Shown here: in pieces, positions 42,139-50,595 of the stretch
How the letters are laid out: the number at the start of each line of letters is the position of its first letter
How positions within the stretch are numbered: the stretch's first letter is position 1
DNA from: Petasospora fabianii
Lineage: Eukaryota; Ascomycota; Saccharomycetes; Phaffomycetales; Wickerhamomycetaceae
DNA: 64,000 nucleotides
Reading direction: 5' to 3'
Assembly (NCBI GenBank): GCA_022641835.1
Contig: CP048718.1
Span: 806,001 to 870,000 of the forward strand
The notes under the pieces: model-generated
What the model saw: the letters and a program-made list of their open reading frames with translations, nothing else
Database searches by the model: none
Told to the model about the DNA's origin: nothing
Made by a program: the position numbers and the translations under genes

Positions 42139-43062
42139 TTATGTCAAAAGTAGTATCACTTTTGTAAAGGCAATCACTGTAGAAACGGCAAATTGACCAA
42201 TTCCAAGAATAACAAGAGACACAGTCAATGCCACTGCAGCTTGTTCTTGATTGTTAAGAGCTTGTGGTTCTTGTTGACGCATCAGGGAATTGAAGGCAAT
42301 AGCATTTCTTAAGAGTGCTCTCTCCCTTGTTTCACCAATTTTGATCCAGGGACGACGATCCTGTTTAAATGCATCCCTAACTGATGCTTCTTTACTATAA
42401 GCTTTACTCGAGAGGATTGTTCCAACGCTTCTTGTCTCGAGCTGAGCAGCGCAACGGACTCTTTCACAATGATGGATCAGTATCATTGAAGTTCTACCAC
42501 TAAGAGTTCCGTTTCCTGTGAGCCTCCATTGACGCCAATCAGTGATGTAAACAAAGTGATGTGGTTTAATCAGTGTGTAGTCACTCATTGATCCATTATC
42601 CTCATTCCAGAATGGAGGTATGTTGTACTTCTTGTTTGGTGCGTTGACGGTGAAGTCAAACACGGTGATGAGGCTCTGTTGCTTAATATTCCGGAAGGCT
42701 CCAAGAGTAACACGTCTGACATGTGGAAGGTTCATCATGGATAGAAGGCTCATACTATACATAGGGTCATCCTCGACAATAAGGATAAACTCACGCAGAT
42801 GACTGTTGCTTTGTACTGCGGCGATGAAGCTGCGAAGGGTTAACATGTCAAGCTCGCATATCACCTTGGTGATGAGTTCAGGTGGAAGAGCCCTAAAATA
42901 CTTAAAAGAAGGAGGAGTGTGCACTTTAGTTAAGTACGTCTTTCTGCTCTTCTGTAAACTGATAGTGTTAAATCCATGTTGAGCGGAGGACCCCACAGAT
43001 TTCATAGACACGTAGGATGTGGAGCGTTTCTCCAGATGGCTCGATAAAAAGGATCTCTTCAT
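42139..43062 (-). CDS. Unrecognised protein with an F-box-like motif and C-terminal membrane helix
   Basis: 307 residues from the first ATG (43062); a longer frame would need a non-ATG start. I do not recognise the family. About residues 58-95 read FRALPPELITKVICELDMLT then LRSFIAAVQSNSHLREFI, an F-box-like pattern (LP-E-L---I---L----L--------S--LR). The middle is rich in aromatic residues and tryptophan (FVYITDWRQWRL). The last about 34 residues are hydrophobic, a likely tail anchor. An F-box protein fixed in a membrane would be unusual, so the F-box call is tentative. Convergent with RRP14. Confidence 0.6.
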   Translation of the reverse strand: MKRSFLSSHLEKRSTSYVSMKSVGSSAQHGFNTISLQKSRKTYLTKVHTPPSFKYFRALPPELITKVICELDMLTLRSFIAAVQSNSHLREFILIVEDDPMYSMSLLSMMNLPHVRRVTLGAFRNIKQQSLITVFDFTVNAPNKKYNIPPFWNEDNGSMSDYTLIKPHHFVYITDWRQWRLTGNGTLSGRTSMILIHHCERVRCAAQLETRSVGTILSSKAYSKEASVRDAFKQDRRPWIKIGETRERALLRNAIAFNSLMRQQEPQALNNQEQAAVALTVSLVILGIGQFAVSTVIAFTKVILLLT

Positions 43063-43420: not shown

Positions 43421-45590
43421 TTAAACAGTAGTCTTACCGGTTTGAGCAAGTGGTGCGACGAGACCAGTTGCCCTGTTCAACACCGTCTCAATTCTTCCCT
43501 TCAACACGTTTGATCCACACTCAACACTCATCTTATAGTAATCGATAATAGCCTCGCTCTTTCCAATCTTGACGGTAGCACCACTTCCATCTTCTTTAGC
43601 AGTCAATGTATCACCAAACTGTGCCTCAAGCATAGTATTGATTCTCTTAATTCTTGTCGGAATAGAGGAATCAGTAAGAGTGCTTGGCTCTTGATCATGG
43701 GAACATGATTTGGAGGACATCTTGACGGAAGCAGGTGAAGAGTCCACAGACATCAAAATGGCCACCACGGAGTCGGCGATGGTGTCATTAATGATACCAC
43801 TCATCCATTCGATGGTACAAACATTCTTAATGATACTGACCGTAATCTCATTCATGATCTTAACCTCATATTCCTCAGGATCATCAATCAGGACATCAAC
43901 ATGACCAAACATTTGGAGCAAATGCCACTGAACCAAATCTCTACCTGCTTCAATGAATATTGTCTGGCGTTCCTTCACCACAGTCGATGTCAGACCAGCA
44001 TACTCTCTAACATCATCAACTTTCATCAAGTTTAGATCAAAGTCCTTAGCAACAAGCACACCGGTAAGTGTTTTATTACCCTTCTCCTCCACAATAGCAC
44101 CTAATGCCTTAGCAACCTTAGATCCCTTGAAATGCAAACTCACCTCATCACAGTTTCTTGGGTTATAAACCTTGACCTCCTTATCCGTTCCTTTAAACTT
44201 GGAATACTTGGACAAGAGGGCAGATTTGAGTCTACCCATTGGGTTTGATTCACCATGCACCAAGATAATAGACTTTGGATCCACTTGCTCGATGAATTTG
44301 GAGTTCTGCTCATAGTCGACATGAGCAGCAAATGAGATCTCCTCAATAGTGAGACGTCTTGGGATCTGTGAATCTGGATTATTCACCGCTGGGATTGTAT
44401 CAGGTTCAGTGATGAGTGCCTTAGCGAGTGTTCCCTCGACAGAATAACCAGTCAAAATGACAGAGTTACGTGAGTCTGGAGCCCATCTCTCGAGAAGTTC
44501 ACGAGATACACCATTTTGGAGCATTCCGGGACTTGCAATGACGACTGATGGACCAAAATCGTCGAAACGATCAAGATTCTTGATGTTCTTGACGTGCTTG
44601 AACTGGAATGGGTTAGAGTTTGAATCTCTGAATTGTTTACGAATCTTATCATTCATCATGTTAATGTACGTTTGGAACACAGAGAGACACTTCTTAGCCA
44701 GTGATGAGGCATAGTACACGTTAACATGATCGAGATCTGTATGTGTGCTCCAGTACTCATCAAGGATCAGCAAAAGTTCTTGTGCGGTACCAAGTGCAAA
44801 CACGGGAAGTAGGACACGACCACCTTTATTAAGCGTTGAATGGATCAAATTTGTGAGTCTCAGTTCCTTCTCTAGTCGAGGTTCGTGTGTAGCTGTACCA
44901 AATGTTGATTCTGTAATCAATACGTCTGGCTTCATTGGAGGAATCTCTGCTTGGTTCAAATGACGACTTTCCTCTCTGGAATAATCACCCGTGAATAAGA
45001 TCTTCAACCCACTGATTTCAATCATGTACATAGCAGCACCAAGAACGTGACCAGCATGGTATGCTGTGAATCTGATACCATCCACCTCATTTGTTGAATG
45101 ATAGTCCACAGTTTCAATCTTGTCAAAGGACTCGAGAAGATCCTCGTCACTATATAACGTCGTTGAGGACCCAATGGAGGTGACTTTGACGAAATCTGTT
45201 AATAACCATCGATAAATAGCCTTTGTAGGGTGTGTCATGAACACTCGACCGTTGAAATTGGTGTGTTGCATCACATATGGTAGGGAGGCGGCGTGGTCGA
45301 GATGAAAGTGAGAGATGAGAAGGATGTCCACCGTGGAGAGGTCAAACTCATCGTAGAACGGCAACGCAGAGATACCTGTATTGGCTGGATGAACACCAGC
45401 ATCGAGCATGATGGTTTTGCCCTTGTATTGGATGATATGACACGATCTACCAACCTCGGAGCCACCACCGAGGGCGATGAACTTGAAAGCATCCGCATCG
45501 TTGGCCGGCTGGACCTAATGTTAGTACTACGCTAATAAAACTGAAGGTAGCTTTCATCAGTATACTCACCTCTGGTGGATCAAATGACAT
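43421..45590 (-). CDS. YSH1: mRNA 3'-end endonuclease Ysh1 (CPSF73, spliced)
   Basis: Exon 1 (45570-45590) encodes MSFDPPE. A 55-nt intron (45515-45569) follows with GTGAGT, TACTAAC and TAG; exon 2 is 43421-45514. The product is 704 residues (779 in S. cerevisiae). The metallo-beta-lactamase core shows [13 protein letters not shown], then [13 protein letters not shown] (zinc ligands), FTGDYSREE and [11 protein letters not shown]. The beta-CASP insert has FASPGMLQ-type text ([19 protein letters not shown]) and HVDYEQN, then HGE. Ysh1 cuts pre-mRNA at the poly(A) site in CPF. Only 5 nt separate branch point and acceptor, the shortest here. Confidence 0.96.
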
Positions 45591-45786
45591 GATTTCCTAA
45601 GGATACTCAAGAGTCAATCAAGAAGGTTGTTAAGAGACCATTGTTTGTTAAGAGAAGTGTTGATTCTTTTCCTCCAACTTTTCGCGTCCAGTGACTGGCG
45701 AGGTTAAAGGGCACTGGCCTCAATTAACACTTCATATCCATTGACCAGCTGGTTATTCTCTCTATTTAAGGTCATATTTATCATCT

Positions 45787-46527
45787 ATGGCTGCTACTAC
45801 GAAGATCCTGCTTGTACCAGTCGCCACTATCGGTTGCGGGAAGACCACTACAGCACAGACGTTGGTTAACGTCGCCCCACATGTCTTTGGGTCCGTCGCC
45901 AACGACGACATGCCCTCCGGTGCCAGTGGTCGCAGGAGGTTCTTCCGAACAGGACTTAATGAGCTAGTTGAGCATAACGTTGTGATTCTGGATAAGAATA
46001 ATCATCAGTACCGAGAAAGGACAATGGTGTTCGACGAAGTGGCGAAACATCGTGCGGACTTCCTTAGTGATGATGTACGACTCAAAGTGATATGCTTATC
46101 GTTTGTCAAGGGAAGCCCGAGAGAACCTACGTTATGGAAGACTACAACAACGAGGGTGATCGAGAGAGGTGATAACCATCAATCTATCAAGGCGAATAAA
46201 GATGGGCCCGGTGTCGTATACAGGATCATGGGAGGGTTTGCAAAGAGGTTTGAACCGATCGACAAGATGAAGAAACCTGATAATCTCTTTGATTTGGTGA
46301 TACAATTAGAAGTTGAAGGCGACTCATCGCTAAGGAATGCCCGAAAGATCCTTAGAGTGTTATCGGAAAGGTTCCCAGAGGTTGTATCGATGTACCCATC
46401 TGATGAAGAGTGGAAACAAGCCTTCACCAAGGCTCTTAACTATACACCAGATCACACCAAGTTGATACGGAAAAGAGCTGGAGCACAAACTACGTCAAGG
46501 AAAGAGAACAATGTTTCCCAAAATTGA
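45787..46527 (+). CDS. Stand-alone polynucleotide kinase resembling the tRNA ligase (Trl1) kinase domain
   Basis: 246 residues. The text matches the central kinase domain of fungal tRNA ligase: LLVPVATIGCGKTTTAQTL (P-loop, Lys19), ILDKNNHQYRER (Asp69, Arg76), TTRVIERGDNHQSI (lid, Arg123/Arg127) and FAKRFEPIDKMKKPDNLFDL. Motifs look intact. In Trl1 this domain phosphorylates the 5'-OH of the 3' exon with GTP, between an N-terminal ligase and a C-terminal cyclic phosphodiesterase. Here the protein starts just before the P-loop and stops about where the phosphodiesterase would begin; neither partner domain is in the flanks. It may be half of a split tRNA ligase or a freed paralogue. Divergent from YSH1 over 196 bp. 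Confidence 0.8.
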   Translation: MAATTKILLVPVATIGCGKTTTAQTLVNVAPHVFGSVANDDMPSGASGRRRFFRTGLNELVEHNVVILDKNNHQYRERTMVFDEVAKHRADFLSDDVRLKVICLSFVKGSPREPTLWKTTTTRVIERGDNHQSIKANKDGPGVVYRIMGGFAKRFEPIDKMKKPDNLFDLVIQLEVEGDSSLRNARKILRVLSERFPEVVSMYPSDEEWKQAFTKALNYTPDHTKLIRKRAGAQTTSRKENNVSQN

Positions 46528-46640
46528 ACGAAACTAGTATTAATAATAGAGAGAGACAAATAGAGAAGTGAAAACCAAACCAAACAAACACCAGCATCTA
46601 GAGACACAAATAACAATCAAACAAAACCATTCATAAGATA

Positions 46641-48797
46641 TCATGGACCAGATCTCAAAACATTTTGTCTTTGGAATCTCATCGTGATGGTCTCCTGACG
46701 TTCCATAGCATACAATGCCTTATCTAGAGAAAGTTGATTGTACTCCTTACCAACAACAAACTCTCTCTTCAAAGTATCGTAAGTGGTTGAGAAACCAATT
46801 GGTAGTCTCTTTCTAATCTCCCTCTCAATCTTTCTGACCTCTTCAAGAGTCTCAGGTGACATGTTAATGATACCTTGAGATGCTGCATCCATTGTAGAAG
46901 CCTGGAACAATCTGATAGCTTCATCAACGTGCTCCTCCTTAGCAACAGGTGAGAGCTCCAGTTTAGCAAGAGACTCGGCAATACGAATAATGGCCTCGAG
47001 TTGACGTACTGTGATAGGAATTGAGGATCTCTCATCAGCCTCAACTTCCTTGTCATGCACCTGCTTTCTAATCTCAACGAAATGGGAACTTAGTTTCTCA
47101 GCAGCATCTGGTGACAGTCTTGGAGCACATTTGGCACGACAATAGGAAATGTATCTTCTCATTGTATCGAGTGGGATCTCACCTGCAACCTCCTGGTTAT
47201 TTGTTCTTCCCATGTGAATGTTTAAGACGTGATTAGCAATAGAAACATCTCTTGCTTCATTATGATCATCCTTAACAATGAAAATCATATCAAATCTAGA
47301 CATGACAGAAGCTGCAAAGTCAATGTTCTCACCAGGGGTCTTGGTATCGTCATATCTACCATACACTGGGTTTGCTGCAGCGAGAACAGAAGTTCTGGAA
47401 TTGAGCACTGTAGTAATACCAGCTTTAGCAATGGAAATGGTCTGCTGTTCCATGGCTTCATGAATAGCAACCCTATCTTCTTCTCTCATCTTATCAAACT
47501 CGTCGATACAAACAACACCACCATCAGCTAACACCATAGCACCACCTTCTAGATAAAATTCTCTAGTGGATGAGTCTCTCTGAACAGAAGCTGTCAAACC
47601 GGCAGCAGATGAACCTTTACCCGAAGTGTAAATGGAGATGGGACTCACCTTATCAACGAACTTGAGTAATTGGGACTTGGCAGTACCAGGGTCACCAAGC
47701 ATAAGAACGTTAACATCACCTCTTAGTCTCATGCCGTCTGGGAGTAATTTCTTAGAACCACCCATTAGCAGACAAGCAATGGCCTTCTTAATGTCTTCAT
47801 TACCGTAGATGGAAGGAGCGATAGATTTAGCAAATGCCTCGTAAAGGTCCGGTCTTCTTGATAATTCCAAGAACTCTTCTTCCTCCTCTTCAGTGAAGAT
47901 GACATTACCAGCAGCATTATGATCGACATCGGTTTCGATACCAATAACTTTGACATAAGGGTTTCTGATAGCGACTGATGAAGGTCCCTTCATTTTAGAC
48001 TGGAACGTAGAGTAGATACCAGTAATAGTACAACGTGTTCCTGGAATAACCTTATTAGTCAAGTAACGATCAGCAGATAGAAGGACGTGTCTTGGCATCT
48101 CACCAACTGGGACCATCTCGGGCAATTCCTGAAGCTTAAGCGACTGTTGATCGATGAAGAGAGACTTGTCATGGACGATAACGTATGGATCTCTTGGACA
48201 TTGACTCTTTTCACCATCAGCTGGGATAGCTGCACATGCTGATGGTAACACAACACCACCAAAGCTCGAATTGACATTTATACGTTGTGTATGTCTGCAA
48301 GAGCGACACATGATTTGAACAGATGTGGCCTTAGAATGCAAAACTGAGGCAGAGATTACAATACCACTGATACGGATGATCTTTGAAATGTGGTCAGCGT
48401 CGAGCTCTCTAAGGGTAAGTTTTGCTGCTCCTGACTTGAGGATAAGCTGGCATGTTGGAAAATTTGGTGGAATCTCCGACTCAGTAAGGTAGACGATTCT
48501 CTTTGCAACGTCGGTGATGGCTCTTTCGAACAATGGAACCATCTCCGTAGGAGCATCCATAAGGTGTTTGTTCAAGTTTTCCTGATAACCGATGAGATCA
48601 GCAGCATCAACGGTGAGAGAGTACTCCTTGACAAGAAGCCTTTCTCTGAGCTGATTACGGTAAATGAACTCAGATCCAACACGGAACTCCAAAATGAACT
48701 TTCTGAAGGCTGCGATGAACTCCTGGTTGGTGTCCTGGTCATTCTCTTCACCTGGAAGGACACTGGCGGTGTACACGTCTCCACGATCGAACGACAT
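46641..48797 (-). CDS. MCM5: MCM5, subunit of the replicative helicase
   Basis: 718 residues (775 in S. cerevisiae, CDC46). N-terminal domain with a zinc finger ([13 protein letters not shown] ... [19 protein letters not shown]). The AAA+ core has Walker [14 protein letters not shown], Walker [10 protein letters not shown], sensor 1 [12 protein letters not shown] and the arginine finger SRFD. It starts [17 protein letters not shown], like other Mcm5 proteins. Part of the Mcm2-7 ring loaded at origins. Upstream ACGCGT (48987-48992) suggests G1/S expression. Confidence 0.98.
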
Positions 48798-49195
48798 CGT
48801 ATAGTCTGTTTATGAAAGAAGTGTGGGTGTGTTGGTGTGTTATAGCTGTTCGTAGAAGTCCTGTTGAAGTACGAAAGACAAAGACTGCACTATTTGTTTT
48901 CCTTCACTGGCGCACGAGCTTGTTCAAGCTGCAATTCATTTCCTCAATTGGGAAGGTTATTCTAAATCTCCCACACGCGCGTGAAGACGCGTCAGAATTT
49001 TTCGCGTTTTTTCGCGTTGTTCGTTGTATCAGGTAATTGCCTAAACTAGACATTTTAGAAACTTTCGCGACATTTGCAAAAGTTGTATCCTAAAGGAGCA
49101 CAGCTCAACAGACAGTATTCTCTTTTATAGGCTAGATATACTCTGCTTTTGTCGGAGTTTGAAGGACCTTTGATACCCCAATCATCACGATCACA
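48798..49195. promoter_or_regulatory. Divergent MCM5/SMD2 promoter with an MCB box
   Basis: 398 bp. ACGCGT (MluI cell-cycle box) is at 48987-48992, about 190 bp before MCM5, with the related CACGCGCGTG-like text just beside it (about 48973-48983). TTTTTCGCGTT occurs twice in tandem (near 48998-49018), and TTTCGCGAC, a near match of TTCGCGAA, at about 49063-49071, some 130 bp before SMD2. Confidence 0.6.
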
Positions 49196-49696
49196 ATGGC
49201 GTAAGTCTCACTTTCGTGGGTTTGTCATTATCTCGAAGAATGATTGACGCCAGTACACTACTCTCACACACCCCAACAGACTACTAACATCATCTCTTCA
49301 CAGTGAACTTGTTGACCGTCCACGCGCTGACCTCTCTGAGGCCGAGCTTCATAGACTCGAAGAATACGAATTCACACATGGACCTATGTCTGTGCTGCAA
49401 GATGCTGTGCAGAACGGGACACACGTTCTGATAAGTTGCAGAAATAATCATAAACTTCTTGCCAAAGTGAGGGCCTTTGATAGACATTCAAATCTTGTCT
49501 TGGAGAACGTTAAGGAGGTAAGTCTTGCCCCATATGCTCTTTTACATGAAGCAAAATACTAACTATACTGCAGCTCTGGACTGAGATCCCAAGAAATGCT
49601 AATGGAAAGAAGGGCAAGCCGGTGCCAAAGGAGAGATTCATTTCAAAGCTCTTCCTTAGAGGAGACTCTGTTATTGTGGTATTAAAAGCTGCTTGA
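49196..49696 (+). CDS. SMD2: Spliceosomal Sm protein SmD2 (two introns)
   Basis: Exons 49196-49200, 49304-49517 and 49574-49696 give 113 residues (110 in S. cerevisiae). Exon 1 is 5 nt (ATGGC). Intron 1 is 103 nt (GTAAGT, TACTAAC at 49282-49288, CAG); intron 2 is 56 nt (GTAAGT, TACTAAC at 49557-49563, CAG). Sm motif 1 is present in [20 protein letters not shown] then [19 protein letters not shown], followed by [12 protein letters not shown]; Sm2 appears as [18 protein letters not shown]. SmD2 is one of seven core proteins of U1, U2, U4 and U5 snRNPs. That a splicing protein gene is itself spliced allows feedback, though none is shown here. Confidence 0.95.
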
Positions 49697-49881
49697 AGAA
49701 CACAAAAGATTATAGATCGTTCTATTTAATGATGTTATGCATATGAAATTGTAATCTAGAGCTGTGTTTTTTCGCTTTGTAGTATCTACAGGATGTGGGG
49801 ATTCCTATGTACAGTGTATGGCATTAAACTCATTTTAGACCAATGGTTACTCTATTTTTACATATACCATTCAGAGGCAAT

Positions 49882-50595
49882 TCAAGCACTGACCTGAATT
49901 GTCTTGGTGACAACGCTCTGAGATCCTTCTTGTGATATCGTGAGTTTGTACGTTCCCTCAATTGAAATCTCCTCAATCTCTTCCTTCTTGGCATTGGTGA
50001 GCTTGATGTCGGAGACAGGCGTCGTCAAACCGACACTCTGTGTAATCTTATCAGACACTGTAGCCTTTGTGATTGGATTAGTTTCGTTAAGAGAGAACTG
50101 AAGAGTTCCAAGTGTAATATTGAGTGTGAGCATCGAGTATCCGGAAGATGGTGTGATGTTTCCACTAGAGCCACTAGCTTCTGATGGGATATCAAATAAC
50201 AGACCTTTAAGTTCCACTGGATTAATCTTCTGTGGGGTCTTCTTCGTTGTATCAGCCTCCTTTTCTAGAGCCTTCTGAGCAGCGACCTGTGCAGTCTGTT
50301 GTTTAAGAGATTGTTGTCTCTGAGTCTGGACCTGCTGTTGTCTGACATCTCTCTTAACAACTGGAATCTTGGGACCAAGACCAAGTTTAGGGTCAATGTA
50401 TGTGGCACCATTGTTTGGATGAAGTCTGTTTCTCATGAGACCTGGAAGAACTTCAATGATCTCTCCCTTCTGACCAAATTGTGGGAAGTCTTTCAAGAGT
50501 TGCACACTGATTCTGTTCTCACGCTTCGTGCGGGCGGAGTATCTCACGAGTGGAACTCGCTTAAATGCTGGTTGACGAAATAGAACACTACTCAT
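49882..50595 (-). CDS. MRPL50: Mitochondrial ribosomal protein bL9m
   Basis: 237 residues. The N-terminal domain carries the L9 pattern: [20 protein letters not shown] then [19 protein letters not shown]. It follows a basic presequence ([25 protein letters not shown]). A Gln/Lys-rich helix links to a C-terminal part ([14 protein letters not shown] ... [11 protein letters not shown]) that looks like the L9 C-terminal domain. S. cerevisiae Mrpl50 has only about 139 residues, so this protein is longer and closer to the bacterial two-domain layout. Role: large subunit of the mitochondrial ribosome. Confidence 0.85.

Follow-up and report, generated by a model that had tools for sequence, protein, structure and literature searches.

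What does a yeast that already has a complete transfer RNA (tRNA) ligase do with a second copy of the kinase of that enzyme alone? The question arises from a 64,000-nucleotide stretch of the genome of Petasospora fabianii (contig CP048718.1, positions 806,001 to 870,000 of the forward strand; hereafter the window), in which an open reading frame (ORF) encodes a Trl1-type kinase as a free-standing protein. The gene is intact, its active-site residues are conserved, and it coexists with a full Trl1 in the same genome. The best explanation, known here from sequence and predicted structure and given slightly less than an even chance, is that a duplicated kinase piece of TRL1 has become an active 5'-OH RNA kinase that prefers guanosine triphosphate (GTP) and feeds RNA decay. 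The features of the gene are, in window coordinates:

45787..46527, + strand: free-standing Trl1-type 5'-OH polynucleotide kinase gene, an ORF from ATG to TGA (stop codon included) of 246 amino acids, apparently intron-free
45808..46314, + strand: PF08303 tRNA_lig_kinase domain, residues 8-176 (Pfam; genome-level match C4:851808-852314)
45826..45849, + strand: P-loop TIGCGKTT, residues 14-21, of which residues 16-21 lie in columns at least 97% conserved among 118 Trl1 kinases
45985..46020, + strand: ILDKNNHQYRER motif, residues 67-78, in which D69, N71, N72, E77 and R78 are the Trl1 residue
46153..46188, + strand: RVIERGDNHQSI motif, residues 123-134, in which R123, R127, G128, D129, H131, Q132 and I134 are the Trl1 residue
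46324..46506, + strand: C-terminal segment matching PF08302 (Pfam) only at positions 1-62 of its 250, most of the phosphodiesterase domain being absent

The protein matches PF08303 in Pfam with 182.3 bits and an E-value of 1e-53 over profile positions 1-167 of 168, and its frame begins and ends close to the borders of the Trl1 kinase domain. All 27 of the 27 near-invariant positions are kept, these being the columns conserved to at least 97% in the 118 Trl1 kinases (the yeast's own Trl1 and 117 proteins of 700-950 amino acids, taken from 120 of 344 listed, three of which fell outside the length range). Because of the E-value and these 27 positions, a chance match is excluded. A preliminary description of this frame, made from the letters of the DNA, had reported the motifs of the Trl1 kinase, and all three are indeed present; the RVIERGDNHQSI loop presumably has a guanine-recognition role in Trl1. 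The predicted structure of the protein has the Trl1 kinase fold. Its last predicted helix (206-217) lies inside the confidently folded region. The stretch matching PF08302 contains the last predicted kinase helices and the C-terminal end, which is of low confidence (predicted local distance difference test, pLDDT, of 68, 56 and 57 in blocks over the last 26 residues).

The same description had found no ligase and no phosphodiesterase part, and this was borne out. PF09511 (ligase) had no match in the 246-amino-acid protein among the five Pfam families listed up to an E-value of 1, so that of the three domains of a trifunctional Trl1 the protein carries PF08303 and has neither PF09511 nor a full PF08302. 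It had also pointed to spliced-on exons or an assembly break as explanations that would undo its reading, and the sequence gives no sign of either. Missing exons or a break are not indicated because the window holds 0 N bases, none of the searched splice words lies in the gene, and the only ligase match found in the genome is inside the full Trl1. GTATGT, GTACGT, TACTAAC and CTAAC do not occur on the + strand between 45301 and 46900; GTAAGT occurs there once, at 46779, past the stop codon, and CTAAT at 45515 and 45532, well upstream of the gene, and at 46813, downstream of it.

The missing domains were looked for in the 12.3-Mb assembly of 16 contigs, with only the best candidates scored in each domain search. 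Among these, the ligase family had one match, and the kinase and phosphodiesterase families two each. A single ORF of 814 amino acids on contig C1 is a complete Trl1 with ligase, kinase and phosphodiesterase, and it includes the sole PF09511 match found (C1:1330951-1331625). The second kinase match and a shortened second phosphodiesterase match are the window gene; at genome level the latter covers PF08302 profile positions 1-63 and reads across the stop, one TGA being counted. The kinase of the yeast's own Trl1 does not look dead, as all 27 near-invariant positions are kept there as well. RtcB, an alternative ligase, had no match in this genome.

These matches decide between the two options offered by the preliminary description. 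A split tRNA ligase with its other domains elsewhere would fit a window frame without ligase and most of the phosphodiesterase, but it is ruled out by the 814-amino-acid enzyme with all three domains and 27 of 27 kinase positions, and next to no weight is left on it. A split ligase of the Mucorales kind has its kinase encoded apart from the ligase, which is found here, and no trifunctional Trl1, which is not the case here. The second option, a kinase paralogue, is supported by the presence of the complete Trl1.

Both options had been called new, which appears to hold for one of them. The closest known system is the kinase domain of fungal Trl1 (Rlg1; structures 5u32, 6tzx and 6u03), from which the window protein differs in that it has no ligase, its phosphodiesterase match ends at profile position 62, and it is encoded by a separate gene beside full Trl1. 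Structures in complex with guanosine diphosphate are available for the kinase of Lichtheimia corymbifera (9drz) and that of Rhizopus azygosporus (9d8a); these are considered natural stand-alone proteins of the split Mucorales system, in which no trifunctional Trl1 is known. Their chains are shorter (165 and 176 amino acids), and the window protein has 21 and 18% identity to them over 159 and 164 aligned residues, respectively. In amphioxus, sealing and healing enzymes are described as separate (PMC10598085). Separate healing and sealing enzymes are thus already known, and the part that appears undescribed is a kinase-only paralogue beside full Trl1, of which no description in yeasts was found among the titles and beginnings of abstracts listed from the literature searched, subscription papers lying largely outside it.

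Whether the gene might be a decaying fragment without function was weighed on its divergence. It has undergone more long-term change than Trl1 and its codon usage is not distinctive, but the frame is intact, the 27 conserved positions are all kept, and the protein difference to a relative's copy is 1.6% for the kinase vs 1.8% for Trl1. A pseudogene is unlikely given the conserved positions and these two differences, and the chance of mere decay is put as very small; recent constraint on the kinase gene is suggested. Another explanation, unlikely in our view, is extra kinase dosage, by which the protein would have no pathway of its own and simply add to the kinase step of Trl1 in tRNA and HAC1 splicing. 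The shared 27 of 27 Trl1 residues and a full Trl1 with ligase and phosphodiesterase in the genome are consistent with this; however, the window kinase has 42-47% identity to seven Trl1 proteins of the same clade (P0006 to P0018), and, given also its long branch, it is far diverged for a mere dosage copy.

Similar genes occur in other yeasts. A first search of 450 candidates at an E-value of 1e-5 gave five relatives of about the same length, and a profile search gave 45 proteins among 4227 candidates. From length, ends and Pfam domains, 14 of the 45 were taken as kinase-only, whereas the other 31 were set aside because they were partial, were pieces of Trl1 or carried further Trl1 domains. The kinase-only relatives are annotated gene models, and two of them (P0005 and P0151), on contigs under 2 kb, may be Trl1 pieces. 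Named examples are found in Wickerhamomyces mucosus (P0130), W. pijperi (P0134), Kockiozyma suomiensis (P0133), Sugiyamaella lignohabitans (P0156) and Scheffersomyces xylosifermentans (P0004); they resemble the window protein in extent, comprise the kinase alone, and have 32-40% identity to it. For W. mucosus and W. pijperi, a full Trl1 is annotated too.

A tree was built from 63 rows, namely the window protein, 13 kinase-only relatives, the own Trl1 and 48 chosen proteins; the remaining relative, P0001, is nearly identical to the window protein and was therefore kept out. The 14 kinase-only rows need seven changes, at least five of them forced by starred branches, and a single clade of these rows was rejected (p 1e-81). 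Going by these changes and the rejected clade, kinase-only genes, or kinase-only gene models, have arisen more than once. Support is weak (81/66) for a group of the window kinase with P0129, P0002, P0126 and P0128, and weaker still (52/47) for the union of this group with three Wickerhamomyces-type copies. The own Trl1 clusters with the Trl1 of named Wickerhamomyces (95/95), from which the yeast is probably of the Phaffomycetales type. In tests on groups that were named after the tree was seen, a recent copy of the own Trl1 was 9.6 log units worse and not rejected (p 0.26), nor was rejection obtained for a wider clade that includes P0003 (p 0.42), for an origin inside the Wickerhamomyces-related Trl1 clade (p 0.45) or for a joining of the Wickerhamomyces copies with three Trl1 rows (p 0.105).

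What, then, would the gene do? The part of TRL1 that codes for the kinase alone would have been duplicated and kept as a gene of its own, and its product would be an active, GTP-preferring kinase that phosphorylates the 5'-OH ends left by RNA-cutting enzymes, for example the tRNA-splicing endonuclease, Ire1 or the no-go-decay nuclease. Published reports state for Saccharomyces cerevisiae that the Trl1 kinase phosphorylates 5'-OH ends with GTP preferred (PMC6592678), and further that the RNAs so phosphorylated undergo ligation or are committed to degradation by Xrn1, as described for HAC1 exon and intron fragments (PMC6456296) and for no-go-decay fragments (PMC6949252). Trl1 can hand a phosphorylated end to its own ligase domain. 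Because the window kinase has no such domain, most of its products would be taken up by Xrn1, an exonuclease that depends on a 5'-phosphate, and the cell would have more 5'-kinase activity to spend on kinase-mediated RNA decay, with no increase in ligation. With no ligase or phosphodiesterase on the window kinase and Trl1 already in the cell, extra or targeted kinase-mediated decay would be the simplest role. The predicted fold and the conserved residues argue strongly for enzymatic activity and GTP preference, RNA is the likely substrate, and decay as the pathway is weakly suggested.

Several points weigh against this explanation. In S. cerevisiae, Trl1 by itself suffices for kinase-mediated decay, so that there is no need for a dedicated kinase, and no interaction motif or partner of the window protein points to Xrn1. 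The end branch of the window kinase is 0.89 vs 0.28 for the own Trl1, which reads as much more change since the duplication and would be compatible with either a changed or a shared task. Codon usage does not single out the kinase frame either, its in-frame correlation with the neighbours being 0.21 and that of the five other frames 0.14 to 0.37.

Some of the relatives carry additions to the kinase. P0003 (252 amino acids, kinase-only) has a canonical PCNA-binding motif, QASIHDFF, at residues 17-24 in an N-terminal extension. A strict PCNA-type match somewhere in the shuffled tails of the 14 relatives has a probability of 0.011; the pattern is also present in 14 of the 117 full Trl1 proteins, in 11 of them at one shared ..PFY/PYY site. 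QASIHDFF would suggest a nuclear, replication-linked role for the P0003 copy. By eye, the last 11-14 residues of P0002, P0126, P0128 and P0129 share a motif after a variable linker (DIVHML, DIVQFL, DIRELL and DIIQML); in most cases basic residues come after it, and it resembles a docking motif. The window protein has neither this C-terminal motif nor a PCNA-type motif nor an added tail.

P0003 bears on a further alternative, in which the substrate would be DNA. The copy might have taken over the 5'-kinase half of polynucleotide kinase/phosphatase (PNKP), which is seemingly absent from this yeast. The sole PNK3P match in the genome (C3; L007:1498-2211, - strand) is a 238-amino-acid 3'-phosphatase with no other Pfam domain at an E-value of 1e-5. 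No PNKP-type kinase was found elsewhere in the genome, three of 13 AAA_33 matches having been read (8 loci returned); by eye, these three loci are KTI12-, APS-kinase- and phosphofructo-2-kinase-like. The PCNA-binding motif of P0003 is a further argument for DNA, but the pattern alone is weak evidence in view of its presence in full Trl1 proteins, the window protein is without it, and orthology of P0003 to the window protein is not established by the tree. S. cerevisiae, too, is not known to have a PNKP-type 5'-kinase, yet no kinase-only Trl1 copy is known from it. A DNA kinase is considered improbable. Clp1/Grc3 RNA 5'-kinases and PNKP are, like the window protein, 5'-OH polynucleotide kinases with a P-loop, and presumably belong to other sequence families. 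PNKP (1yj5) is among the weaker fold matches, with a template-modelling (TM) score of about 0.45 by query length only, and the fusion with a PNK3P 3'-phosphatase domain that characterises the PNKP type is not found, as PNK3P had no match in the window protein in Pfam.

RNA repair is another conceivable task. Anticodon-nuclease killer toxins leave 5'-OH and cyclic-phosphate ends, and an additional kinase might heal the cut tRNAs faster, with Trl1 resealing them. The kinase copies seem to be spread patchily over the yeasts and to have arisen repeatedly, a pattern that a defence gene might show; however, the phosphodiesterase and ligase are not duplicated, and no toxin system is seen at the locus, whose annotated neighbours (YSH1- and MCM5-type) have housekeeping functions. 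The chance of such a role is regarded as slim.

The upstream neighbour of the kinase gene is a CPSF73/YSH1-type gene on the - strand, and downstream follow an MCM5-type gene (- strand) and then a gene for an LSM-domain protein (+ strand). Window 43421-50595 thus groups the YSH1-type gene, the MCM5-type gene and that of the LSM-domain protein, which by eye is SmD2-type. MCM5, SMD2 and YSH1 are close neighbours in S. cerevisiae as well, so that the kinase gene sits within an otherwise conserved gene block. As the start codons of the YSH1-type gene and the kinase gene are 196 bases apart, the two may share a divergent promoter. In window 45515-45590 (- strand), by eye, the first exon of the YSH1-type gene is short (45570-45590), and the gene contains an intron whose TACTAAC branch site lies at 45520. 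The 307-amino-acid ORF adjoining the YSH1-type gene (42139-43062, - strand) had no Pfam match at an E-value of 1e-5.

Among the other proteins collected, P0158 (Rhizophagus irregularis, 385 amino acids) and P0142 (Piedraia hortae, 413 amino acids) are annotated with kinase and phosphodiesterase and without ligase (longest contigs 2.3 Mb and 407 kb); either they are healing enzymes in their own right or the gene models could be truncated. The gene model P0112 (Pichia inconspicua, 1083 amino acids) comprises a full Trl1 and a phosphatase (PF00702, PF12710), and its cluster is named O-phosphoserine phosphohydrolase by one source. Probably the annotation has run two adjacent genes together.

Taking the family as a whole, a broader and rather doubtful proposal is that budding yeasts have several times carved out a stand-alone Trl1 kinase that commits cleaved RNA to decay. 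Whether a broken tRNA or HAC1 mRNA ends up resealed or destroyed would then depend on the ratio between kinase-only protein and full Trl1, and some lineages would have gained docking motifs (PCNA-type in P0003, C-terminal in P0002, P0126, P0128 and P0129) and with them new partners. For the annotation of other genomes, a kinase match by itself is no ground for calling the tRNA ligase split or missing. In S. cerevisiae, the resealing of cleaved RNA and the start of its decay are both the work of one protein, which makes these fates difficult to disentangle. A kinase that naturally lacks a ligase and occurs beside the complete enzyme would be a ready-made separation of function, in which the choice between repair and decay is directly testable.
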